Source: Sphingobacteriales bacterium
GTDB taxonomy: Bacteria; Bacteroidota; Bacteroidia; Chitinophagales; Chitinophagaceae
DNA length: 41,865 bases
NCBI GenBank assembly: GCA_900299255.1
Contig: OMJB01000124.1
Location: 1-41,865, forward strand
Direction of reading: 5' to 3'
The notes beneath the pieces are model-generated. The model saw only the letters and a list, made by a program, of their open reading frames with translations. It made no database searches and was not told the DNA's origin. The position numbers and the translations under genes are program-made. Shown piece by piece: positions 13,986-25,829 of the stretch; within the stretch, counting starts at the first letter, position 1, and every line of letters starts with the position of its first letter.

Positions 13986-15947
13986 TTACTCCACCCTTAC
14001 CCCCACAAGCCAGTTAATACCCGGCATGGGGCGCTGATATACGAGCTGGTATTGCTTGTTCCAGATATTGTTGCAGGAGGCGATGAGCTGGCAGGAGTGG
14101 TTCCTGATTGCCCTATTATACATAAGCTGTACATTGCACGTGGAGTAGGGTAGCATCCATGCTGATTCGTCGGTTGTGGTGAAGCGGTAGCCCGTATAGG
14201 TGTGGTTGTAAGTGAGGGTTATGCCCTGCCATGCAAGCCCTAAGTTTGCCTGGCCGTTATAGCGGGGTGTATAGGGTATTTGTTTGCCTATACTTCCGTC
14301 ATTGTATATGTAGCTGCTGGTGGTAGTAGCCAGAACATAAGCAGTATTAAGACCCGCATGTATTTTCCATTTACCAATTGTGTACGTGAGTTTGTTTTCG
14401 GTTTCAATGCCCTTGCTGTTTACCTCACTTATGTTGTGAGGAGTCCATACAGCACCACCCAGCCAGTAAATCCAGTCGTGAATATCGCGGTTAAAAACTG
14501 CCAGGCCGTGAAAAACTGCCAGCTGGCCTATTTTAGCCTTAACGGTGTAGCCTGCATCTTCGTTCCAGCCCTGCTCGGGTTTCAGATTCTGGTTGCCCCC
14601 GGGGAAAGAATACAGCTCCATCAGTGTTGGTGCACGGTAAGTACGTTGCGCATTTGCCCGTATTGACAGCCAACTGGTGAGCCTGTAAGAAGCGTTGATG
14701 CCGGGTAGCAGTATTTCTTCGTTATCAATAATCTCGCCGCGCACGCTGGCCGATACGTTCAGGTGCTGCCGGAGTGCTTTCAGCTCCCATGCGGCAACCA
14801 GTGCGGCGCGCTGCTGTAGCGCTGTATCTTCGTTTTCTGCACCATTGCTCATCCACGAGAACTGGCAGGGAGCAAATAGCAGCAACTGCCCCAGATTGCG
14901 AAAATTTTTCCGCCAACCCATTTCAATAAATACGCTGCGGGTTTTGCTTTCAGAGGCCAGGTGTACGTCTTCGTCAGTATAATTTGCTTTGTCGTAAATT
15001 ATGGCAAGCCTGCCGTAGTAAGTGCCCTTGCCCAGAGGTTTCTGCCAGTCGGTAAGGAACCGCAGTCCCATATCTTTCTGCTTTTTAGATGAGGTGGGTT
15101 CGAACAGCGCCGGGGGAACCTCACGGCTGTATTGCTGTATCCATAGGTAAGTATTCAGCAGTATGGAGGGTGTATCCAGCACGGCAGCATGGAGCATCAG
15201 CGACAAGCTTTGCAAGTCGTCGTTTAGCATGGAGCGGTGGGCTCCCGATTGTGTAGTGTACCTGAAATCATTTGCTGCAGCCTGCCCGAAAATGCTTGAA
15301 GAAAAAAAGAATTTCCTTCGCACCACCTCAGTTTTGATACCTGCCATATACTGCCCGAAACTGCCCGCACCCGCACTTGCTGCCAGCGTGGTTTTGCTTA
15401 AGCCGAACACCGGTGCTTCGTTCTCCAGCAACAATGCGCCACCTACATTGCCACTGCTCCACAATGCAGCAGAGCTGCCGTAAACCACATTGGCCCTGCT
15501 CATCAGCATAACTGGTATCATAGAAACATCAGCTATGCCCATGGCTGCATTCTGGATGGGTATGCCATTCCATAACACTGCCGACTGTGCGGCGGATGAA
15601 CCCCGGAAATTTAAAGTAGCCAGTTGATTGAAACCATATGACTTGACAAACACCGGTACCTGCTGCGCCAGCAGGCTGGCCATGCTCTGCATCTGGTATT
15701 GTTGCAGGGTGGCACTGTCTATCGTAGTTATTTTCAGGCCCGGAGCAAATACATTGGCCCTGGCATCGTTCGTTACATTTTGCCTGCCCTCTATTTTGAA
15801 TTCGTGCAGGGTGGAGTCTTTGGTTTCCTGAGCTGTTACCCCGTAAACTACGAGCAGGCTGGCCATTAAGCTCATAACAAATCTGATGCAACAACTCGAA
15901 AGTGTTTTTGCATCGAACTTATGATCGTTATGTAGTTTGGCTTTCAT
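13986..15947 (-). CDS. TonB-dependent outer-membrane receptor, BtuB-like (cobalamin uptake)
   Basis: 653-aa receptor, close in size to BtuB and lacking the CarboxypepD_reg domain of SusC-type receptors. A signal segment near residues 20-40 is followed by a plug domain at about 50-155 (SLLAQQVPVFVKSYGFNQLATL, NFRGSSAAQSAVLWNGIPI, YGSSAALWSSGNVGGALLL) and then a 22-strand barrel. FPGGNQNLKPEQGWNEDAGY is a typical barrel segment. The protein would import its ligand across the outer membrane with TonB energy. Its ATG overlaps the BtuG-like gene stop by 4 bases. It is the last gene of an operon headed by a cobalamin riboswitch, so vitamin B12 is the likely substrate. The substrate assignment rests on riboswitch and partner, not on specific residues. 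Confidence 0.9.
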   Translation of the reverse strand: MKAKLHNDHKFDAKTLSSCCIRFVMSLMASLLVVYGVTAQETKDSTLHEFKIEGRQNVTNDARANVFAPGLKITTIDSATLQQYQMQSMASLLAQQVPVFVKSYGFNQLATLNFRGSSAAQSAVLWNGIPIQNAAMGIADVSMIPVMLMSRANVVYGSSAALWSSGNVGGALLLENEAPVFGLSKTTLAASAGAGSFGQYMAGIKTEVVRRKFFFSSSIFGQAAANDFRYTTQSGAHRSMLNDDLQSLSLMLHAAVLDTPSILLNTYLWIQQYSREVPPALFEPTSSKKQKDMGLRFLTDWQKPLGKGTYYGRLAIIYDKANYTDEDVHLASESKTRSVFIEMGWRKNFRNLGQLLLFAPCQFSWMSNGAENEDTALQQRAALVAAWELKALRQHLNVSASVRGEIIDNEEILLPGINASYRLTSWLSIRANAQRTYRAPTLMELYSFPGGNQNLKPEQGWNEDAGYTVKAKIGQLAVFHGLAVFNRDIHDWIYWLGGAVWTPHNISEVNSKGIETENKLTYTIGKWKIHAGLNTAYVLATTTSSYIYNDGSIGKQIPYTPRYNGQANLGLAWQGITLTYNHTYTGYRFTTTDESAWMLPYSTCNVQLMYNRAIRNHSCQLIASCNNIWNKQYQLVYQRPMPGINWLVGVRVE

Positions 15948-17017
15948 TCGTCAAAATAGAAATGCCCGGGGCCCATACCCACACTGAAACTCTTAACCTG
16001 TTTTCCGTCAGGCTGGTAAATAAATACGCTGCCTTTCTGTATAAATCCTTTCGGGTCGCCGACAAAGATATTGCCAGTGATTGGGTCAATGCCCAATGCA
16101 TAAAAATATTGGTATTGCTTTGCGGCAATAAATGGCTGTGTTGGTAATTCAAGGCTGGTAACCGGCATCCGGTAGATGCCGTTATTAACTGTTCCTCCAT
16201 TATAGTCAATTTCAATAAAATAGAGCGTATCTCTTGTCGTGTTGAATACCGGTTTAATCACATCTGCATCCGCCGGAAACTGGTACTGGCCCACTATATT
16301 GCCCGACGATGGGTCTATACGGGTAAATATGGCCCTTTTGCCCTGCTGTTTGTTTCCTGATAAAACCCACAGCAGATTGTATTTATCCATCATTACATCT
16401 TTTGGCGCACTGCCGGCAATCGTTATTTTCTGAGCAAGCTGGCCTGTGCCTGCATCAACTTTATACAGCACATTGCAGGCAGTGTCCCAGGTGCAGATAT
16501 AGGCGTAATTGTCGTAAAGGCCCAAGCCTTCAGTGTTGGTGGACGGAAGAGAAAATGTGTCAGTTACGGACTGCGACTGTGGGTTAATAACATATACTTT
16601 GCTACTGTACTCCGATGTGACAAATGCCCTCAATGCACTTACCTGCATCATGTAACGCGGTTTGGGAATAGGGATACTCGCCACCTGTGACCAGTCAGAT
16701 GCATTGAGCACCACAACTTTATCAGAATTGTTGATGCACAGGAATAGTTTGTCGCCGATACGTACCATGCTCTGAAAAACATCACCCAGCGGTTGGTTAT
16801 TAGTGCTTTTATAAATGTCGCCAAATACACTATCAGGCACAGGCTGGTAGGTGTACAGCGATGCATCTCCGCTCATAAACCTGCCTTCACACACTACATA
16901 GATTTTACTTCCGGAAAAGGGCGTTTGCCTCACTACGTCATCAGGCTTGTCTTTGACGCACGATGCCAGCAGGCAGCAAAGAACTGTGATCAGTGTTTTG
17001 TAATTACCTGTTGCCAT
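15944..17017 (-). CDS. Surface lipoprotein, DUF5074 / YncE-like beta-propeller (BtuG-like)
   Basis: 357-aa lipoprotein. The lipobox LLASC places the lipidated Cys at residue 20, followed by VKDKPDD, an acidic/Lys context like the lipoprotein export signal that sends Bacteroidota lipoproteins to the outside. The rest forms repeated beta-propeller blades (KIYVVCEG, GDKLFLCINNSDKVVVLNA, KVYVINPQSQ, and so on), ending GPGHFYF. DUF5074/BtuG proteins of Bacteroides cap BtuB and bind cobalamin very tightly at the surface. Its position just upstream of a BtuB-like receptor in a riboswitch operon supports the same role. The start overlaps the preceding T9SS gene by 28 bp and the stop overlaps btuB by 4. 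Confidence 0.85.
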   Translation of the reverse strand: MATGNYKTLITVLCCLLASCVKDKPDDVVRQTPFSGSKIYVVCEGRFMSGDASLYTYQPVPDSVFGDIYKSTNNQPLGDVFQSMVRIGDKLFLCINNSDKVVVLNASDWSQVASIPIPKPRYMMQVSALRAFVTSEYSSKVYVINPQSQSVTDTFSLPSTNTEGLGLYDNYAYICTWDTACNVLYKVDAGTGQLAQKITIAGSAPKDVMMDKYNLLWVLSGNKQQGKRAIFTRIDPSSGNIVGQYQFPADADVIKPVFNTTRDTLYFIEIDYNGGTVNNGIYRMPVTSLELPTQPFIAAKQYQYFYALGIDPITGNIFVGDPKGFIQKGSVFIYQPDGKQVKSFSVGMGPGHFYFDE

Positions 17018-17982
17018 TTGTTTCCGGATAGGTCTTGTAAAATCAGGTAATACATTCCGGCGGCATACTGAGATACCTGAATGGTATTATCTGCCGGCGT
17101 TAATTCTTTACGCTGCAGTACAGTGCCTGTAGTGGTTGTAAGCACAGCGGTTAATGATAATGGTGTTGCCACTGCTACCGTAAACAGTTCGGAAGAAGGG
17201 TTGGGGAATATATTTATTGCTGTGTTGGCGGTTAATGATTTTATTCCGGTTTCAACGTTGTGTATCACACCCACTGCATCCAGGTCAAAGCCGCAGGATG
17301 GGAATGGTGTGGGGTAGGGGTCATTGATTGCGCGGCCCGTAAAATCGTGTGACGCATTAGCGAAAATAGACCCTACTACATCCACAATGCGGATATGGGT
17401 AATATGATTGATGTCTAGCCCGATGGTTCCTGCCAGCTCCTGCAGGTCAAACGGTGTGCCATACATGGCAATGTACTTTCCTGCCAGGTTATTGATGTTG
17501 CTCGCGTTCAGGTAGGTGGTGTTTCCTGCCTGCACATTGACCTGGGTATTGGATGATGCCGGGAACCGGAAGTAGTTCGTGCCATCAGAACTTACCTCTA
17601 CAAAAGCAAGTTCCATATATGATTCTGAATCATTGGCGGGATTGATAAAGCCATTTTCAAATACCGCAAAATCTGCGCCCGGCCCATCATAAATCGGTTT
17701 GGCAAAAGTAACAATAGCCACGCCGCTGTCACCCAGGCTCACGATGCCATTGTCTGCCACGCCCAAAGCTGCTGTGCTGTCGCCGGCTGAAGCATACCCA
17801 AGCGAGGCATCTGCTATGTTCATTAGCCCGCGGTAGATAGTGCAGCCAGTTGCCCAGTTTACAAATCTGGTGCTGGCGGCCGGTACGGCATCACTGCCCG
17901 CCAGCCCTGCCTGCGGGGTGTACTGCGCACCTGCACTAATGCTTAGCAGCCATGAGCAGAGGAAAATGAAAGCTTTTTTCAT
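16990..17982 (-). CDS. T9SS-sorted surface protein of the cobalamin operon
   Basis: 330-aa exported protein: signal peptide (MKKAFIFLCSWLLSISAGAQ), one globular beta-rich domain (about 25-245), then a T9SS type A sorting tail from NIFPNPSSE near 256 to VITKH. The core contains GPGADFAVFENGF and AFVEVSSDGTNYFRFP, a pattern I know from uncharacterised cell-surface proteins, often beside TonB receptors, but with no proven function. It starts 14 bp after the DUF4465 gene and overlaps the BtuG-like gene by 28 bp, so it is firmly part of the operon. Likely role: extracellular binding of cobalamin or of a carrier; this is inference from context. Confidence 0.82.
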   Translation of the reverse strand: MKKAFIFLCSWLLSISAGAQYTPQAGLAGSDAVPAASTRFVNWATGCTIYRGLMNIADASLGYASAGDSTAALGVADNGIVSLGDSGVAIVTFAKPIYDGPGADFAVFENGFINPANDSESYMELAFVEVSSDGTNYFRFPASSNTQVNVQAGNTTYLNASNINNLAGKYIAMYGTPFDLQELAGTIGLDINHITHIRIVDVVGSIFANASHDFTGRAINDPYPTPFPSCGFDLDAVGVIHNVETGIKSLTANTAINIFPNPSSELFTVAVATPLSLTAVLTTTTGTVLQRKELTPADNTIQVSQYAAGMYYLILQDLSGNKWQQVITKH

Positions 17983-17996
17983 TGCGTGGAGCAGGG

Positions 17997-18971
17997 TCAG
18001 TCTTTAATAAAGCGTAAAGCAGCGTTTTTGTTTTTACCCTTCAGCTGCAGCAAATATACGCCAGCGGGCAGGGAAGCTGTGTTTATTTCATTATGCCCAT
18101 TGGTTAGCACTGAGTGGCTCATAACCACACCTGCTGCGTTGAGAATTACAGCCTGCGGCATATCACTATCATACAGGTCAATAAACAGGGAGTTGTGGGC
18201 AGGGTTGGGGTATATTCTGGTGGTGCCTGTTGCTGTTGCCTGGCTAGTATGTAACGTACCGGATTCGGCGGTAGTGAAATTGTCTATGCAAAAATAGGCC
18301 GGTGTGTTCATGCCGAAGGAGCCGTTATCAGTAGAGCTGAGTGTGAACAACAGGCTGTCGGCATTACCCAGGGGAAGCAGGTTTACCCACTGCCACGTTT
18401 TGAGAATATAGTTCATTGTAGAATCAGGAAACAAATAGTTGGCCAGGTATATGCCTACGCTGTCGGGCTGCAGCACGCCGCCGGAATAGGCACGTACAGT
18501 AAGCTTAAACCAGTCGCCGTTGTGGAACTTGCGTGCAAATCCGTCGCCATCCCTCATGCTGTTGTAGGCATAGGTATTGTTGGTTACATAGAAGCCGCTA
18601 ACCGGATTGCCAGCTGCAGCACCCAGTAAAATTACTTTGTTGTCGTTGCCGTAGGCTACCGCATACTTGGCCGAACCTCCATAACCTATTGCTGTTTTAG
18701 CAGAATACTGATTGGTATAGCCGCTTGTAACGCTGTCGGTCATATTCGAGTAGGCAAAGCCATAACTCCAGAATCCGCCGAATGAGGCATCATACACACA
18801 GGGAAAATGAGCCAGCCCGTTATTGAATCCCACATCTGTGCCAGATGCTGAGTAATTGACATAAAAAGTGTCGGTGCCTGCCAGGCTGAGGCTATCAAAT
18901 GAGGCTACAGTCTGCGACTGAGCGGCTGAGCCCGAGGCCAGGGCAGCAAGTAAAATAAATAATCTGCGCAT
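17997..18971 (-). CDS. DUF4465 domain protein with T9SS sorting tail
   Basis: 324-aa exported protein and the first gene after the riboswitch. A signal peptide (MRRLFILLAALASGSAAQ) is followed by a DUF4465 domain at about 20-235, with the family's marks NGLAHFPCVYDASFGGFWSYGFAYSN and later YFCIDNFT (split by the loop YGGSAKYAVAYG). Residues about 250-324 are a T9SS type A tail (IYPNPAHNS to RFIKD). DUF4465 proteins recur in Bacteroidota operons with BtuG-type and TonB proteins and are suspected to be surface cobalamin-capture proteins, usually as lipoproteins. Here the anchor is a T9SS tail instead. The ATG at 18971 lies 141 nt from the riboswitch core. Confidence 0.87.
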   Translation of the reverse strand: MRRLFILLAALASGSAAQSQTVASFDSLSLAGTDTFYVNYSASGTDVGFNNGLAHFPCVYDASFGGFWSYGFAYSNMTDSVTSGYTNQYSAKTAIGYGGSAKYAVAYGNDNKVILLGAAAGNPVSGFYVTNNTYAYNSMRDGDGFARKFHNGDWFKLTVRAYSGGVLQPDSVGIYLANYLFPDSTMNYILKTWQWVNLLPLGNADSLLFTLSSTDNGSFGMNTPAYFCIDNFTTAESGTLHTSQATATGTTRIYPNPAHNSLFIDLYDSDMPQAVILNAAGVVMSHSVLTNGHNEINTASLPAGVYLLQLKGKNKNAALRFIKD

Positions 18972-19094
18972 ATAAATTCAGTTTTTAAAACAAATTCAAT
19001 GCAGCAATTGGGTAAAAATCAGATACAGATAAACGCAGGAAATACCCACCCAGATCTCATCTGTGCTTTTGATCCCGAAAGCAGCGATAAGTAC

Positions 19095-19111
19095 ACCTGA
19101 TATTCTCAGGT
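19095..19111 (-). promoter_or_regulatory. Hairpin following the riboswitch (possible expression platform)
   Basis: On the minus strand, ACCTGA-GAATA-TCAGGT forms a 6-bp stem with a 5-nt loop, starting 4-5 nt after the B12 box. Its 3' arm (CAGGT) could instead pair with the ACCTG of the B12 box. No U-run follows, so it is not a plain terminator. Confidence 0.45.
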
Positions 19112-19305
19112 AAAAGGCAGGTCTTCTGACTTACTTCACTTTTTGCGGCCTTCCCGTCGGTTTCTGAAAATCAAAATGCAGACAGTGGCAATTCAGGTAG
19201 CAAAAAGCTTTTTTTGAAGCTTACAGCATCGGGTAATGTCCGGGATTTGCACCCGGTTCCCTTTTCATCCTTCTCTGGTCGCAACCAGATCAGGAACCTT
19301 TGTGG
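19112..19305 (-). ncRNA. Cobalamin (vitamin B12) riboswitch
   Basis: Read on the minus strand, the conserved blocks appear in order: GGTTCC (19293-19298), AAAAGGGAACCGG with GTGCAAATCCCGG (about 19236-19265), GCCACTG (complement of 19183-19189), GGGAAGG (19149-19155), and the B12 box AAGTCAGAAGACCTGCC (19116-19132). The spacing fits an adenosyl- or methylcobalamin aptamer. It precedes the DUF4465 gene and so controls the whole uptake operon. A short hairpin (19095-19111) follows at once and may be part of the expression platform. High cobalamin would be expected to lower expression. Confidence 0.93.
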
Positions 19306-19382: not shown

Positions 19383-19835
19383 TCAGTCGTTTCTCAGTTT
19401 TTCCAGCAGTTCATTCAGCAATAATGCCTCAGACTCGCTGATGCCGTTCATACTCATGTTAATCTCTTCCATAAGGAGGGATGCGCGCTGCAGTGATTCC
19501 ATTCCCTTGTCGGTCAATGAAACCAATGTTTCTCTTTTGTCTTCGGTGGACGGGGTACGCTTTGCCAGTTTTTTGATCACCAGCCTGTCTATGATTCTGG
19601 GTACATTGGAGCTTTTTTCAATAATACGGCTGCCAATATCTTTAACGCACATCTGCTCCGGATGTTTGCCTTTTAGTATCCTTAAAACGTTGTATTGTTC
19701 CAGTGTCAGCTCATCAGCCTTAATAGCCATGCTAAACCTCTGTCTGAGCCAGTACGCTGTAAATAATACGTTTATGGTTGCTTTTTGCTTCTCATCCGTG
19801 AATTTATTCGATTTTATGGCTTCTTCCAGCTTCAT
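19383..19835 (-). CDS. MarR family transcriptional regulator
   Basis: 150-aa winged-helix dimeric DNA-binding protein. The helical N-terminus is followed by the wHTH at about 45-110: LTLEQYNVLRILKG, DIGSRIIEKSSNVPRIIDRLVIKKLAKR (recognition-helix region, split by loops), and the wing with the conserved D-R motif STEDKRETLVSLTDKG. The length is standard. Its target cannot be read from the sequence. The gene ends about 65 bp before the cobalamin-operon promoter on the same strand, so read-through into the riboswitch is possible, but no B12 link is known for the family. The ATG at 19835 fits the family N-terminus. Confidence 0.88.
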   Translation of the reverse strand: MKLEEAIKSNKFTDEKQKATINVLFTAYWLRQRFSMAIKADELTLEQYNVLRILKGKHPEQMCVKDIGSRIIEKSSNVPRIIDRLVIKKLAKRTPSTEDKRETLVSLTDKGMESLQRASLLMEEINMSMNGISESEALLLNELLEKLRND

Positions 19836-20316: not shown

Positions 20317-22947
20317 ATGAAAAGACATTCACTATCAGCTGCACTTACATTGGCAGTGCTGGCTATTACCCTCACTGCCTCTGCGCAGGTCAATATTCTT
20401 ACATCGGTGGTAGGAGCCTACATTGGAGGTTCATTTTCCACCGGCGATGGTGTGTGTGCCACATCTGCATTGCTGCCAGGCACAACAGGCGTGGCAGTTG
20501 ATGCTGCAGGTAACGTTTATGTAGGCGACTATGGCTATCACAAAGTGCGAATTGTAAGAAGTTCGAGCGCACTTATTTATACTGTTGCAGGCAACGGTAC
20601 CGCCGGTTTTGGCGGTGATGGAGGCCCTGCCACGGCTGCAAATCTTGCAAGCCCACAGAGTATTTGTGTGGATGCATCAAGAAACCTATACCTGGTTGAT
20701 GCAGGCAACAGAAGAGTAAGAAAAGTTACTGCTGCAACCGGTATTATTAATACCGTAGCAGGCGGCGGTACGGGTTATACAGAAGGCGCTCCGGCTACCA
20801 GTGTAGATATTGGCGATGCGCGCTGCATAGCGCTGAATAATACCGGTGTGCTCCATATTGTTGATAATAGCGGTGTATTAAGAAGAGTAGACCCGCTTAC
20901 AAATGCCATTACCACCGTCGCTGGAGTGGTGGGTGCTACAACTGTTGCCTTTGATGCGTCAAATAATATTTATTACTCGGGTGTAGGTACCGGCATCAGA
21001 AAGATAGATGCAATTACCAGCGCAGTTACATTACTGTTGCCAGCAGGTGGAGATCATTTCTGCCTCGATCCCAGCGGTAATATCTATTTTGGCGATGGTT
21101 CTAAAATATATGAGCTCCATTCCGGTTCAAGTTATGTAGACACAATAGCAGGCTGCGGTACCTCCTACGATGAAGGCGTACCCGCTCGCGAGGCCTATGG
21201 CAACAACTATATGTTTACATCAGACAACGCAGGAAATATCTACTACTCCAACAACTCTACCAACGTAAGAAAGATTAATACCGCAGTTACTTATTTCTCT
21301 TACTTTGGCACACCAAGCTTCAGTGTAGTTATTAATAAACTGTGCAATGGTCCTCAGATCACTGTTATGGCTAATCACTATTCAGCCGGTATGACAGTAC
21401 AGACTTTCTTTGGCGACGGGCAGAATAACATTACAACATTTTCGGCAGGGTGCTCTACAACCAATGGATATGCAGTTATCAACCACACGTATCCGTTCTC
21501 CGGAACTTATACTATCAAGATGGTAATGTATATGGGTGGTGTTGCTATAGACTCGGCACACAGTACCTATGAGTATATATTCTGCAATACCATTCCGGTT
21601 AAGTTCTTTTTTGATGGAAACAATAACTGTTCTAAAGATGCTGGTGAACCTTATATAAACCTGCCTGTACTTACCAAAGTAGATTCAAACGGCGTAACTG
21701 TAGATACTATTTCTGCTACCAATGGCATCTATTATAACGCATATGGAAGTGTAGGTGATGTTTATAAATTTACGCCGCTGGCTATGCCTTCCGGCCTCAC
21801 AATAAATTGCCCGGGTACTGGTTATATTCTCGACACGCTGACTACGCTTGTTTATAACAATGATTACAGGGAGTTTGGATTTAAATGCTCGGGTGTCACA
21901 GGTTACGACCTGCAGATATTCTCAACAGCTATTGCAGGCAGGCATCATTTTCAGGCGGATATGAATGTTGATAATCAGATTTGTGCAGCATTGCCTGCTA
22001 CAGTTGTATTCAACATGAATCCCAAATACCATTACCAGAATGCCAGCCCAGCTCCAACTTCTGTGTCCGGCAATACAATAACCTGGGACCTGACATTATC
22101 CAGCACTGCCCCTAATCCTACACACATTAGCGTAGGTGGAGAGGTGCCGTCTAGCTGGGTGGTGGTAGGGGATACCATTCATACCAATGGCATGGTATTG
22201 CCTTCCAGCGGTGATGCCTTCCCTGGCGATAACAACTGTGGTAACAATGATACAGTTACAGGAAGCTACGATCCTAACTACATGCAGGTATTGCCAAGGG
22301 TTTGCGTGGCTCCTGGTGTAAAGACACTTAGGTATACGGTGCATTTTGAAAATACGGGCAATGATACTGCTTTCAATATCCACGTAATGGATACATTGTC
22401 TGCCAATATCGACCCTAAATCAATAAAGGTTATCACGTCTTCTCATGCAATGGATATATCGCTGATTAATTCAGGTGGATATAACATAGTGAGGTTTAAT
22501 TTCCCTAACATTAACCTGCTTGATAGCTCTCATCATAATCTTTGTGACGGTTTCTTTATGTATTCAGCCGACCTGAAAGGAGGCCTGGCAGATGGTACAC
22601 ACATAATGAACCGGGCAGGAATCTACTTTGATGACAATGCTGTGGTTATGACCAATGGAGTTGAGAACATAACTGGCTGTGTGGAAGACGATGGAGTGCC
22701 GGTTTTGGTTAAAAGCAATAAGGCAGAGATATATCCTAACCCTGCTACAGATGAACTGACTATTATGACTGAAAAAGGTATGTATTCATCCTATACAATC
22801 ACCAATAGCATGGGTCAGGTTATGGACCACCAGGCAATAGCATCTACTTATACCAAAGTGGATATTAATACACTGCCTGCTGGTTTGTACTATGTAACTT
22901 TGAGAGGAGATGCCGGGTCTATGGTCAGGAAAATTGTGAAGAAATAA
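20317..22947 (+). CDS. NHL-repeat / PKD-like / DUF11-like surface protein with T9SS tail
   Basis: 876-aa secreted protein. The signal peptide (MKRHSLSAALTLAVLAITLTASAQ) is followed by an NHL-type beta-propeller at about 30-320 (GVAVDAAGNVYVGDYGYHKVR, in pieces; SICVDASRNLYLVDAGNRRVRKV; VAGGGTGYTEG). A PKD-like domain follows at about 330-425 (TVQTFFGDGQN, HTYPFSGTYTIKMVM), then an SdrD-B-like segment from 431 (FFFDGNNNCSKDAGEP), and a DUF11-like stalk from about 649 (SYDPNYMQVLP, FENTGNDTAFNIHVMDTL). The T9SS type A tail starts at about 805 (IYPNPATDE, ending KIVKK). It is paralogous to the next gene over the PKD-to-tail part. Role is probably adhesion or surface binding; no catalytic motif is visible. 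Confidence 0.88.
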   Translation: MKRHSLSAALTLAVLAITLTASAQVNILTSVVGAYIGGSFSTGDGVCATSALLPGTTGVAVDAAGNVYVGDYGYHKVRIVRSSSALIYTVAGNGTAGFGGDGGPATAANLASPQSICVDASRNLYLVDAGNRRVRKVTAATGIINTVAGGGTGYTEGAPATSVDIGDARCIALNNTGVLHIVDNSGVLRRVDPLTNAITTVAGVVGATTVAFDASNNIYYSGVGTGIRKIDAITSAVTLLLPAGGDHFCLDPSGNIYFGDGSKIYELHSGSSYVDTIAGCGTSYDEGVPAREAYGNNYMFTSDNAGNIYYSNNSTNVRKINTAVTYFSYFGTPSFSVVINKLCNGPQITVMANHYSAGMTVQTFFGDGQNNITTFSAGCSTTNGYAVINHTYPFSGTYTIKMVMYMGGVAIDSAHSTYEYIFCNTIPVKFFFDGNNNCSKDAGEPYINLPVLTKVDSNGVTVDTISATNGIYYNAYGSVGDVYKFTPLAMPSGLTINCPGTGYILDTLTTLVYNNDYREFGFKCSGVTGYDLQIFSTAIAGRHHFQADMNVDNQICAALPATVVFNMNPKYHYQNASPAPTSVSGNTITWDLTLSSTAPNPTHISVGGEVPSSWVVVGDTIHTNGMVLPSSGDAFPGDNNCGNNDTVTGSYDPNYMQVLPRVCVAPGVKTLRYTVHFENTGNDTAFNIHVMDTLSANIDPKSIKVITSSHAMDISLINSGGYNIVRFNFPNINLLDSSHHNLCDGFFMYSADLKGGLADGTHIMNRAGIYFDDNAVVMTNGVENITGCVEDDGVPVLVKSNKAEIYPNPATDELTIMTEKGMYSSYTITNSMGQVMDHQAIASTYTKVDINTLPAGLYYVTLRGDAGSMVRKIVKK

Positions 22948-22999: not shown

Positions 23000-23318
23000 T
23001 TCGATTTGTGTTCGGCAAAATTTATTGGCTAGTACATGTTGTAATTTATTGCCCTGTGTGGTGGTGTTTCCGAAATTATGTCAACAAAATTCGAATAGGT
23101 GCAATGTGTAGCTAAAATAAATATATTAAAACTTTACTAACCTTTCTGCGTACTTTTACGTCTAGGTATGCAGGGAAACAGTGAGTGAGCGCAAAGATGT
23201 GTTTTACCGAAAATAATTTGAGTACAACACCAAAGATTGAGGTTTGAAGTTTCGTCTAACATTATGTAAACATTTTTATAGCCAAAGCAAATTGATTAAC
23301 ACCTATAACAATAAATTT
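23000..23318. other. Intergenic leader of the second T9SS paralogue
   Basis: About 320 bp after the terminator without a gene. The region is AT-rich. A -7-like TACTTTTA (7 of 8) lies at 23151-23158, about 160 bp before the ATG, which would give a long leader. Nothing else was recognised. Confidence 0.3.
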
Positions 23319-25829
23319 ATGAAAAAAATCTTATTATCGTTATTGTCTCTTTCGTCATTGGTGCCATTGGCACGCGCTCAATACCACGTAGGTACATCGG
23401 GTACAAAAAATCCGGTTCTTGAAGTTGCTACAGGTGCCTGGGCTGGTTACTGCCCCGACGCTTTTCAGGATATTGATGAAAAAGTACGGCCTCTGTATGG
23501 TAATACGATCGTTATGGCGTGGCATAACGGCGACCCTATGCAGATAACTGGCGACCCTTATTGTACAGGGTCTGGCTACATCTCTGGTTTTCCTTCCGGA
23601 ACTATTGATCGGGCAAACCTTGGTGGTAGTGTTGGGCAGATGAGGCCTTTTGAAACGAATGTGGGCGTGCGTAGTGCATTGTCGCCAAATTTCGATGTCG
23701 ACATGTTGTGTACATACAATCCATCAACACGGGTAATGGATGTGCAGGTTACGGGAACCGCTCTTACTTCTCTAACGGGGAATTGGTATATAAACGGCTA
23801 TATATTGGAAGACAGTGTTGCAAGTGGGCCAACATCAACGTACAACCAGCACAACTACTATGGCGGTCCCGGCGGTACTATGTCTTGCACTGGCAGCACA
23901 TCATGGTGGGTTTCATCAGGCAACCCTATTATGCCGACAACTATGTTCTGGCACAATTCGGTAGTTAGAGAAGTTCTGGCACCAGGTGGCAGTATTTGGG
24001 GCGAAGCATCGTTTACCAACCCAACGCCCGGTACGACTGTTACAAAACACTATACTTATACCGTTCCTACCGGTTCCAATCCATTTCAGCTAAGTGTGGT
24101 AGGTATGGTTGAGAAATATGGAACTACAACCTCCGACAGGGAAATCGAGAATGCAGTAACATCAAAAGCATCGCTGATGCCTGCTGGTGGCGTTGCCCAC
24201 CTCGCCGATAGTTTTACTGTTTTCCCAACCAATCATTGCGCTGATGTTGAGTTTTACGTAACTACGCCAACTTATCATACCGGCCTTACTGTGGTAACAG
24301 ACTATGGTGACGCCAGCGGCGATACGCATCCAATACTCAGCGCCGGCACTGGCGGATATGCTGATTTTACCCATGCATATGCAACATCTGGTGCTTACAC
24401 TGTTAAGCATGTGCTCTACAGCGGATCAGCTGCTATTGATTCAGTAACCTATACACACAATTATATGATGTGTAATGTTATTCCGGTAGGGTTCTATCTG
24501 GATGCGAATTTTAACTGTGTACAGGATGGTGGCGAGCCGGATATTTTCCAGCCATCACTTACACGGGTTGACTCAAACGGAGTGACAATTGATACGGTAT
24601 CTGCAACCAGTGGTTTTTATTACACCGCATACGGCAATCCCGGAGATGTGTACAAGTTTACTGTTATTCCAACTACCGGTGGATTTACAGTTGGTTGTCC
24701 GTCTGTTGGTTATGTAGCAGACACACTTATGGCTGGTGTTTCAATTGATACAGCTAAATATTTTGGTATGAACTGTACTACTGGGTCAACTTTTGATCTC
24801 AGAATATTCCCAACTGTAAGGGCAGGTATCCATACATTCAGAGGCAATATTGCGGTAGACAATACCTACTGTGCGCTCACAACCGGCACTGTATCCATGA
24901 CTGTTAGTCCGAAATACGATTACTGGTATTCAAGTTTAACTCCTACATCTGTTTCCGGTACAACCGTTACATGGAATGCCGGAGGATTGTCTACTGCCAA
25001 CGCTGCACCAACCATCATTAGTTTCCATTTCGAAGCACTGGGCCCCTGGCATACTGTTGGAGATACTGTTTATAATGATTGCTCTGTTAACCCAACATCG
25101 GGCGACTCCAACCCATCTGACAATGCCTGTGTAAGAGTAGATACTGTGCAGGGTGGATATGACCCTAACTTTATGCAGGTAACCCCTGAAGGTTACATTC
25201 CTGCCGGCACCAAACTGCAGTACATTATTGAATTTGAAAATACAGGTACCGATACTGCTTTCAATATACGCGTAATGGATACGCTGTCTGATAATGTTGA
25301 TATTTCATCTATGCGTTTGCTTATGAGCTCTGCAAAAATGATGGTTTCAAACCTTACAGATGCTGCCGGCCACCATGTCGTTAAATTCGACTTCCCCGGA
25401 ATCAATTTGCTGGATAGCTCGCACCATGGCAAATCAGTGGGCATGATCGTATTTACTGTAAACGCGAAAGCAGGGCTGCCTCCAGGTACAGTTATTCAGA
25501 ACAAATCAGGAATCTATTTTGACAACAATCCTGTAGTGATGACTAATACTGTTACCGATATCATAGGCACTCCTTCCAGTGTAGCTGTATTGAAGACAAA
25601 CAACCTGCATATTTATCCTAATCCGGCAAAAGATGAGCTGGTTGTAAGTATGAATGATGGTGCATTCAATTCCTGCACAATTACGAATGCTATTGGTTCA
25701 GTGATGATGAATCAGGTAATAACTAATGCTGAAACCATGCTGGATATTAAGAGCCTAGCACCGGGAGTTTATTACATATCCCTGAAAGGTGACAATGGCA
25801 GCAAAGTGCAGAAATTCGTTAAGAATTAA
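23319..25829 (+). CDS. PKD-like / DUF11-like surface protein with T9SS tail (paralogue)
   Basis: 836-aa secreted protein. The frame is open from 23244, but ATG 23319 opens a proper signal peptide (MKKILLSLLSLSSLVPLARAQ). Residues about 22-290 are a beta-rich module with no family I recognise (PDAFQDIDEKVRPLYGNTIV, DVDMLCTYNPSTRVMDVQV). From about 299 the protein matches the upstream gene: PKD-like (HAYATSGAYTVKHVLYSG), the FYLDANFNCVQDGGEPD segment near 392, the DUF11-like stalk from about 612 (GYDPNFMQVTP, FENTGTDTAFNIRVMDTL), and the T9SS tail from 765 (IYPNPAKDE to KFVKN). The two genes look like a tandem duplication with an exchanged N-terminal module. Each has its own terminator. Confidence 0.87.
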   Translation: MKKILLSLLSLSSLVPLARAQYHVGTSGTKNPVLEVATGAWAGYCPDAFQDIDEKVRPLYGNTIVMAWHNGDPMQITGDPYCTGSGYISGFPSGTIDRANLGGSVGQMRPFETNVGVRSALSPNFDVDMLCTYNPSTRVMDVQVTGTALTSLTGNWYINGYILEDSVASGPTSTYNQHNYYGGPGGTMSCTGSTSWWVSSGNPIMPTTMFWHNSVVREVLAPGGSIWGEASFTNPTPGTTVTKHYTYTVPTGSNPFQLSVVGMVEKYGTTTSDREIENAVTSKASLMPAGGVAHLADSFTVFPTNHCADVEFYVTTPTYHTGLTVVTDYGDASGDTHPILSAGTGGYADFTHAYATSGAYTVKHVLYSGSAAIDSVTYTHNYMMCNVIPVGFYLDANFNCVQDGGEPDIFQPSLTRVDSNGVTIDTVSATSGFYYTAYGNPGDVYKFTVIPTTGGFTVGCPSVGYVADTLMAGVSIDTAKYFGMNCTTGSTFDLRIFPTVRAGIHTFRGNIAVDNTYCALTTGTVSMTVSPKYDYWYSSLTPTSVSGTTVTWNAGGLSTANAAPTIISFHFEALGPWHTVGDTVYNDCSVNPTSGDSNPSDNACVRVDTVQGGYDPNFMQVTPEGYIPAGTKLQYIIEFENTGTDTAFNIRVMDTLSDNVDISSMRLLMSSAKMMVSNLTDAAGHHVVKFDFPGINLLDSSHHGKSVGMIVFTVNAKAGLPPGTVIQNKSGIYFDNNPVVMTNTVTDIIGTPSSVAVLKTNNLHIYPNPAKDELVVSMNDGAFNSCTITNAIGSVMMNQVITNAETMLDIKSLAPGVYYISLKGDNGSKVQKFVKN

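Follow-up and report, generated by a model that had tools for sequence, protein, structure and literature searches.

A predicted B12 uptake operon of a Chitinophagaceae bacterium whose BtuJ-like and BtuH-like proteins carry type IX sorting tails

Capture of vitamin B12 (cobalamin) at the surface of Bacteroidota has been described, in the open-access literature, for gut Bacteroides, and B12 binding by DUF4465 proteins has been shown in other phyla too. In operon 2 of Bacteroides thetaiotaomicron the genes run btuJ2-btuH2-btuL-btuG2-btuB2-btuF... (PMC12751083, PMC8941943), and the accessory proteins are predicted to be lipoproteins (PMC12751083). We analyzed a stretch of 41,865 nucleotides, referred to as the window, from a Sphingobacteriales bacterium of the family Chitinophagaceae (assembly GCA_900299255.1, contig OMJB01000124.1, positions 1 to 41,865), which carries a four-gene operon on its minus strand (Table 1). 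Like operon 2, it has a cobalamin riboswitch, a DUF4465 gene in first place, a gene of putative BtuH type in second place, and then BtuG and BtuB genes. Unlike operon 2, it has no gene at the btuL position and no btuFCD genes after the receptor gene, and its first two proteins end in sorting tails of the type IX secretion system (T9SS) and have no lipobox pattern. This is a known type of operon in a T9SS variant, found in other Bacteroidota lineages and predicted to place its capture proteins outside the cell in a different way. Its second protein, here called the orphan protein, belongs to a widespread BtuH-like family that has no curated name in the libraries searched.

Riboswitches of the cobalamin class allow the downstream operon to be expressed when B12 is scarce, an established type of regulation. 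The reading that we consider probable is that the window holds a B12-repressed operon for BtuJ, BtuH-like, BtuG and BtuB proteins, in which two capture proteins are exported by the T9SS rather than anchored as lipoproteins. Under B12 scarcity the riboswitch would permit expression of the operon, and the DUF4465 (BtuJ-like) and orphan (BtuH-like) proteins would enter the periplasm, from where the T9SS would carry them through the outer membrane. Their tails would leave both on the cell surface or on vesicles, or released, and they would catch cobamides and pass these to the surface protein BtuG, which would cap the TonB-dependent channel BtuB; BtuB would then import them. We infer this order of hand-over among the capture proteins, BtuG and BtuB. 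What we computed here are the parts of the operon and the family of each, how they are linked across many genomes, the tails, and the contact residues that are conserved.

Table 1. Positions in the window of the riboswitch, the four genes and the tails and residues discussed in the text.
Feature	Position	Strand	Basis or remark
Cobalamin riboswitch aptamer RF00174	19099-19316	minus	127 nt 5' of first gene; model 1-189 of 189
BtuJ-like DUF4465 protein with a T9SS type A tail; start resembles a signal peptide	17997-18971	minus	PF14717, PF18962
T9SS sorting tail, DUF4465 protein	18021-18215	minus	PF18962, 1.1e-9, residues 253-317
Tyr134 codon	18570-18572	minus	aligns with B12-binding BtuJ1 Tyr146 (DE loop)
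Tyr226 codon, in NTPAYF	18294-18296	minus	aligns with B12-binding BtuJ1 Tyr245 (HI loop)
Orphan protein, BtuH-like domain and T9SS tail	16990-17982	minus	profile, structure comparison, PF18962
T9SS sorting tail, orphan protein	17002-17211	minus	PF18962, 6.4e-8, residues 258-327
Asn110 codon (FENGF motif)	17653-17655	minus	aligns with BtuH2 Asn399
Phe112 codon (FENGF motif)	17647-17649	minus	aligns with BtuH2 Phe401
BtuG-like DUF5074 beta-propeller protein, probably lipoprotein	15944-17017	minus	PF16819, PDB matches
BtuB-like TonB-dependent receptor	13986-15947	minus	Pfam barrel and plug, PDB matches

An earlier note on this DNA, made from the sequence alone, had given the order riboswitch, DUF4465 protein, second surface protein, BtuG-like protein and BtuB-like receptor, and had allowed that the riboswitch might not hold against the Rfam cobalamin model. 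The covariance model RF00174 matched over its full length at 96.6 bits (gathering score 31.5), and this was the sole match in the genome of 3.47 Mb; together with the Pfam matches, it bears out that order. The note had also put the gaps and overlaps between genes at 14 bp or less, which is right for the gap after the first gene (14 bp) but not for the overlap after the second (28 bp); the third junction is an overlap of 4 bp. An overlap of 28 bp between genes was also seen in many of the relatives' loci, and where a DUF4465 gene leads a relative's operon the gap from riboswitch to gene is 49-200 nt. The gene downstream of the BtuB-like receptor lies on the opposite strand. Overall, what the note had observed was confirmed, and its interpretation is supported with refinements concerning BtuJ and BtuH.

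The protein encoded by the first gene matched the DUF4465 model PF14717 with an E-value of 7.8e-52 (176.6 bits; cut-off 25), and its matches in the Protein Data Bank (PDB) include 4jqr, 9hmu, 9qpm and 9fct. The earlier label of DUF4465 protein can be refined, since DUF4465 is the BtuJ family (IPR027828), for several members of which, distant ones included, B12 binding has been published (PMC12751083, PMC13398666). Tyr146 and Tyr245 of BtuJ1 are conserved B12-binding tyrosines (PMC13398666), and both have a tyrosine counterpart in the window protein when it is aligned with the BtuJ1 chain 9fct (Table 1; chain positions were counted by hand on the alignment and the codons were checked). We aligned 50 of the 52 DUF4465 proteins from orphan-family loci, window included, leaving out two fusion proteins (L085 and L108). 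The DE-loop position was Tyr in 45/50, while the HI-loop position was Tyr in 37/50 and Phe in the other 13, compared with 97% Tyr in PMC13398666. By family and by both binding tyrosines the predicted protein is BtuJ-like, and its setting in a B12 operon is a further likeness. It differs from described BtuJ proteins in having a T9SS tail instead of a lipoprotein anchor: in PMC13398666 more than 70% are lipoproteins and signals for the periplasm are given for the rest, and its main text contains none of the words T9SS, type IX and sorting.

No Pfam model covers the domain of the orphan protein, either in the window protein or in 35 domains of a phylum sample, and no family match was trustworthy. 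For the phylum sample, 296 genomes were drawn evenly and searched with a single query; relatives were present in 35, and the phylum set (n = 34) excludes the window's own genome. The GTDB set comprised the best 80 of at least 543 relatives (586 pattern matches), and so leans towards the window. Open reading frames (ORFs), gene profiles and distances came from our own scripts. In 29 of the 34 phylum-set loci a BtuG gene with the orientation of the orphan gene lay no more than 5 kb away, and 24 of these 29 also had such a BtuB gene. By the same measure 70 of the best 80 GTDB relatives had BtuB, BtuG or DUF4465 (BtuB 55, BtuG 62, DUF4465 50, all three 35). A riboswitch above the gathering score was found at 18 of the 33 phylum-set loci scanned (L041 was left out), and 71 of the best 80 GTDB relatives had one upstream in the same orientation. 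For these 80, whose contig numbers and names differ, riboswitches were placed by coordinates and strand, contig identity being deduced; the over-long ORF calls of L109 and L130 begin within the riboswitch. When genes or riboswitch were counted together, B12 loci made up 31/34 of the phylum set and 76/80 of the best GTDB relatives, with L103 and L134 as weaker cases (low riboswitch scores of 48 and 37 bits, and intervening genes). The earlier note had considered that the family might occur mainly outside B12 operons; it occurs mainly at B12 loci.

As a control, we used relatives of one T9SS-tailed NHL/DUF7619 protein encoded in the window, from the same phylum sample and with the same short flanks for both families. 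None of 29 control loci had BtuG, BtuB or DUF4465, compared with 24/29 orphan loci; this comparison is limited in that ORFs of the orphan loci served to build the BtuB and BtuG profiles, an advantage for those loci, and in that many control matches span just part of the query. This result counters an origin of the linkage in chance or in the pipeline. With single window sequences, before profiles were built, BtuB was found in 25/35 loci and BtuG in 28/35, window included. The clearest sign that the DUF4465 and orphan domains work together comes from two loci in which they are fused in one protein with a single T9SS tail (L085:2835-4541 and L108:5236-6900).

A search of the PDB with the single orphan sequence matched T9SS tails only, and the link to BtuH required a family profile. 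When the 35-domain profile was compared with PDB sequences up to E = 10, it found only 8blw_B (4e-6), which is BtuG1 and has a BtuH domain at its C-terminal end, and 7biz_A (0.0055), which is BtuH2 (PMC10404256, PMC8941943). With a profile of 112 rows, only 8blw_B was left (1.4e-4). The 112-row alignments contain 112 of 115 sequences, L098, L102 and L120, cut by contig ends, being left out; L031 and L134, a locus shared by the phylum and GTDB sets, are identical in sequence, which leaves 111 distinct rows. In the opposite direction, a 95-residue piece of BtuH2 had matches in 8 of the 296 phylum genomes, which were BtuH-like proteins in seven and the orphan-family protein of L042 in the eighth (4.2e-4). 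A profile-profile comparison of 10 BtuH domains with the 112 orphan rows gave a probability of 94.1% (E = 1.3e-7, 56 columns). The sequence match is local, covering the N-terminal half only.

A structure model of the orphan domain made from the 112 rows had a mean pLDDT of 97.7 and a pTM of 0.94. When this model was searched with Foldseek, 8blw_B came second by E-value (2.7e-3; the table does not give the aligned part of 8blw_B) and had the highest query TM-score, 0.51, among the 50 matches listed. An earlier model, built on 35 rows, was less confident (pLDDT 80.4), and 8blw_B was then at rank 23, again with the highest query TM-score among the matches listed (0.43). The sole match below 0.001 with the 35-row model, the phage tail chain 9efk_M, fell to rank 33 with the better one and was rejected.

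In BtuH2, Asn399 contacts the phosphate of B12 and Phe401 packs on the lower ligand (PMC8941943). The 35-domain profile alignment, in which three residues concur at a single offset for the BtuH2 chain numbering, places these two on the Asn and Phe of the orphan motif FENxF, and both residues are kept in 112/112 rows. At the column of Gln333, a further contact residue of BtuH2, as judged by eye on a weak alignment, many of the 27 far members have Gln and the window protein has Cys. On the evidence of its profiles and predicted fold the orphan is distantly related to the BtuH domain (BT_1488, BT_1956 and the C-terminal part of BT_1490), with which it shares the two ligand contacts and the B12 operon setting, and we infer that it would bind cobalamin. 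The earlier note had seen in it a protein of no known function and a candidate new B12 binder; the kinship with BtuH means that it is not wholly new. The orphan domain is smaller (about 220 residues, against about 270 in BtuH) and has no PKD or propeller domain, whereas in BtuH2 of B. thetaiotaomicron the B12 domain is larger and PKD domains are present. Because the orphan has a T9SS tail and no lipobox pattern, and so lacks the lipoprotein anchor of BtuH, and because the alignments do not reach the corrin contacts of BtuH2, we call it BtuH-like and have not filed it as BtuH.

Several observations weigh against this reading. The E-value of L042 is for a single genome, although 296 were searched, and L042, the orphan locus matched directly by the BtuH2 piece, itself has no nearby B12 marker. 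When the 8 closest orphan members alone were used, the profile-profile probability fell to 39.7% (E = 3e-4), so the link to BtuH runs via far members. With the better structure model, none of the Foldseek matches listed reached an E-value of 0.001, and 7biz was absent among the 50. No B12 marker was present in the DNA read at three of the 34 phylum-set loci (L032, L036 and L042) and at four of the best 80 GTDB relatives (L111, L127, L137 and L144); L036 and L111 adjoin tRNA synthetase genes. DUF4465 was near the orphan gene in 0/34 phylum-sample loci, as against the 50/80 given above, which means that the family is found widely with BtuB and BtuG and with DUF4465 only nearer the window. DUF4465 was present in 9 of the 296 phylum genomes and the orphan family in 35; two genomes had both, on separate contigs in one of them (G017). 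Finally, a FecCD permease (BtuC family) was not found in the window's own genome (97.9% complete, 146 contigs), which leaves the inner-membrane step unexplained in a genome that has a B12 operon.

Many folds of the CBM32 or discoidin type among the Foldseek matches listed scored similarly to 8blw_B, a further point on that side, and they would fit an orphan that is a galactose-binding-like surface module for glycans or some other ligand, and whose place in the operon is due to chance or to a role in attachment. We consider this very unlikely, given that the sequence profiles found chains of B12 proteins only, that the linkage was missing from the control, and that the riboswitch recurs upstream of most of the best GTDB relatives. 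Less remote, but still unlikely, is the alternative that the orphan binds no B12 itself and plays a structural or docking role for BtuB-BtuG or for the BtuJ-like protein, with an old BtuH fold serving as a protein-binding module. This alternative would agree with the order BtuB-orphan-BtuG with overlaps of 4 bp in several loci, which suggests matched dosing; with the BtuH2 corrin contacts His476, Tyr510, Trp511 and Trp577, which could not be aligned in the orphan; and with the precedent of B. thetaiotaomicron BtuL, a lipoprotein of a B12 operon that does not bind B12 (PMC12751083). The last two also count against B12 binding by the orphan. A docking role leaves unexplained why the two BtuH2 ligand contacts that can be aligned are invariant in the family, and it accounts poorly for L140, where a riboswitch precedes the orphan-family gene by 82 nt and no BtuB, BtuG or DUF4465 is found in the following 5.7 kb. 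L119 and L124 resemble L140, though they lie on contigs that stop after a further 0.2 and 0.8 kb. On balance we favour the orphan as a B12-capturing, BtuH-like protein.

The claim of the earlier note that the two promoter-proximal proteins end in T9SS tails holds in the window and is general among the loci examined. The two tails scored 33.2 and 38.8 bits, against a curated cut-off of 27 for Por_Secre_tail, and at E = 0.001 the tail model matched 92 of 112 orphan-family proteins and 50 of 50 DUF4465 proteins of the same loci. SprA, the T9SS component that we searched for and which we take to be part of the translocon, was found in the own genome with 2458 bits. From their tails, both the DUF4465 protein and the orphan would be exported by the T9SS, and such export of capture proteins looks like the rule in these lineages. 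If the tails were instead remnants or unused, both proteins would be periplasmic, and the 20 of 112 orphan-family proteins without a Pfam tail match would be in keeping with this; we hold it to be highly improbable when tails persist in so many proteins of diverged genomes, when both fusions are T9SS-tailed, and when the genome encodes SprA. In the open-access literature searched, as far as its parts were available, no T9SS-delivered B12 capture proteins are described; BtuG and T9SS are named together in PMC12578637.

Other tailed proteins accompany the family elsewhere. In L116, L136, L046, L048 and L038, T9SS-tailed, weakly BtuG-like proteins are encoded within the operon, ahead of the BtuH-like gene, the match to the BtuG profile being weak in the first four. 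T9SS-tailed DUF4430 proteins, which we take to be transcobalamin-like, stand directly before the BtuH-like gene in L117 (4295-5917) and L142 (4728-5909), and these may be one more kind of B12 capture protein.

The third protein of the window's operon matched PF16819 (DUF5074) with an E-value of 1.4e-10, and its best PDB match was 8bmx_D (7.6e-43), followed by other BtuG entries. Its signal ends in the lipobox-like LLASC, a pattern that is unreliable since it also flags the BtuB-like receptor; the BtuG-like protein is probably a lipoprotein and may lie at the surface. The receptor matched the Pfam models for the TonB receptor barrel (2.2e-30) and plug (2.6e-14). Four PDB sequences fell below 1e-10, 8bmx_C (the best, 7.3e-49), 8p98_A, 8p97_A and 8blw_A, and all four are from entries of the Bacteroides BtuB-BtuG study (PMC10404256). 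The NCBIfam equivalog models for BtuB scored below their cut-offs (TIGR01779, 87.1 versus 599.7 bits; NF007926, 57.7 versus 836 bits), and in our judgement they are probably too narrow for this phylum.

B12-binding domains scored above cut-off at three places in the own genome, which suggests that the organism uses B12. The genome also encodes one DUF6580 membrane protein, away from the riboswitch; this copy has no riboswitch match, and its neighbours read, without a family search, as fatty-acid synthesis genes. In two other loci (L031:1368-3100 and L034:6524-8251) a riboswitch (37 and 35 bits, respectively) is followed by a DUF6580 gene and then by a BtuH-like gene, and from this arrangement DUF6580 is a candidate B12 transporter of the inner membrane. 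We found no mention of DUF6580 in the open-access literature searched.

The model of the Leptospira LIC_13355 lipoprotein family, NF033170, was matched weakly, at E ≤ 0.1, by 35/35 domains of the phylum sample, window included, with a best E-value of 2.7e-13; the window domain gave 1.5e-6 and 27.7 bits over 57 residues, against a curated cut-off of 120. The study of LIC_13355 concerns host binding, and B12 and cobalamin are absent from its main text (PMC11891782). These matches hint at the orphan domain in a Leptospira lipoprotein family of unexplained role, which may thus contain a BtuH-like domain as well.

With no Pfam model, and with relatives numbering at least 543 in the scanned GTDB stretches, the orphan family is worth naming, and no account of its role was found in the open-access literature searched. 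We entertain, tentatively and as a proposal that may well be wrong, that both tailed proteins, the BtuJ-like and the BtuH-like one, serve as true B12-scavenging carriers, either released or held out at a distance from the membrane, as a protein counterpart of siderophores, and that the orphan family forms a distinct and widespread class of B12 binders that replaces BtuH in many Bacteroidota other than gut Bacteroides.

Around the operon, a scan for sigma-70-type promoters near the riboswitch found none, and a weak terminator-like site lies at 19035-19049 on the operon's strand, one of two such sites found against 0.6 expected overall. A MarR-type regulator is encoded on the same strand immediately upstream of the operon (19383-19835). 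Further on, the window encodes two adjoining T9SS-tailed DUF7619 proteins (20317-22947 and 23244-25829), which share 49% identity (residues 333-875 of the 20317-22947 protein); another relative (40%) is encoded in a different part of the genome.

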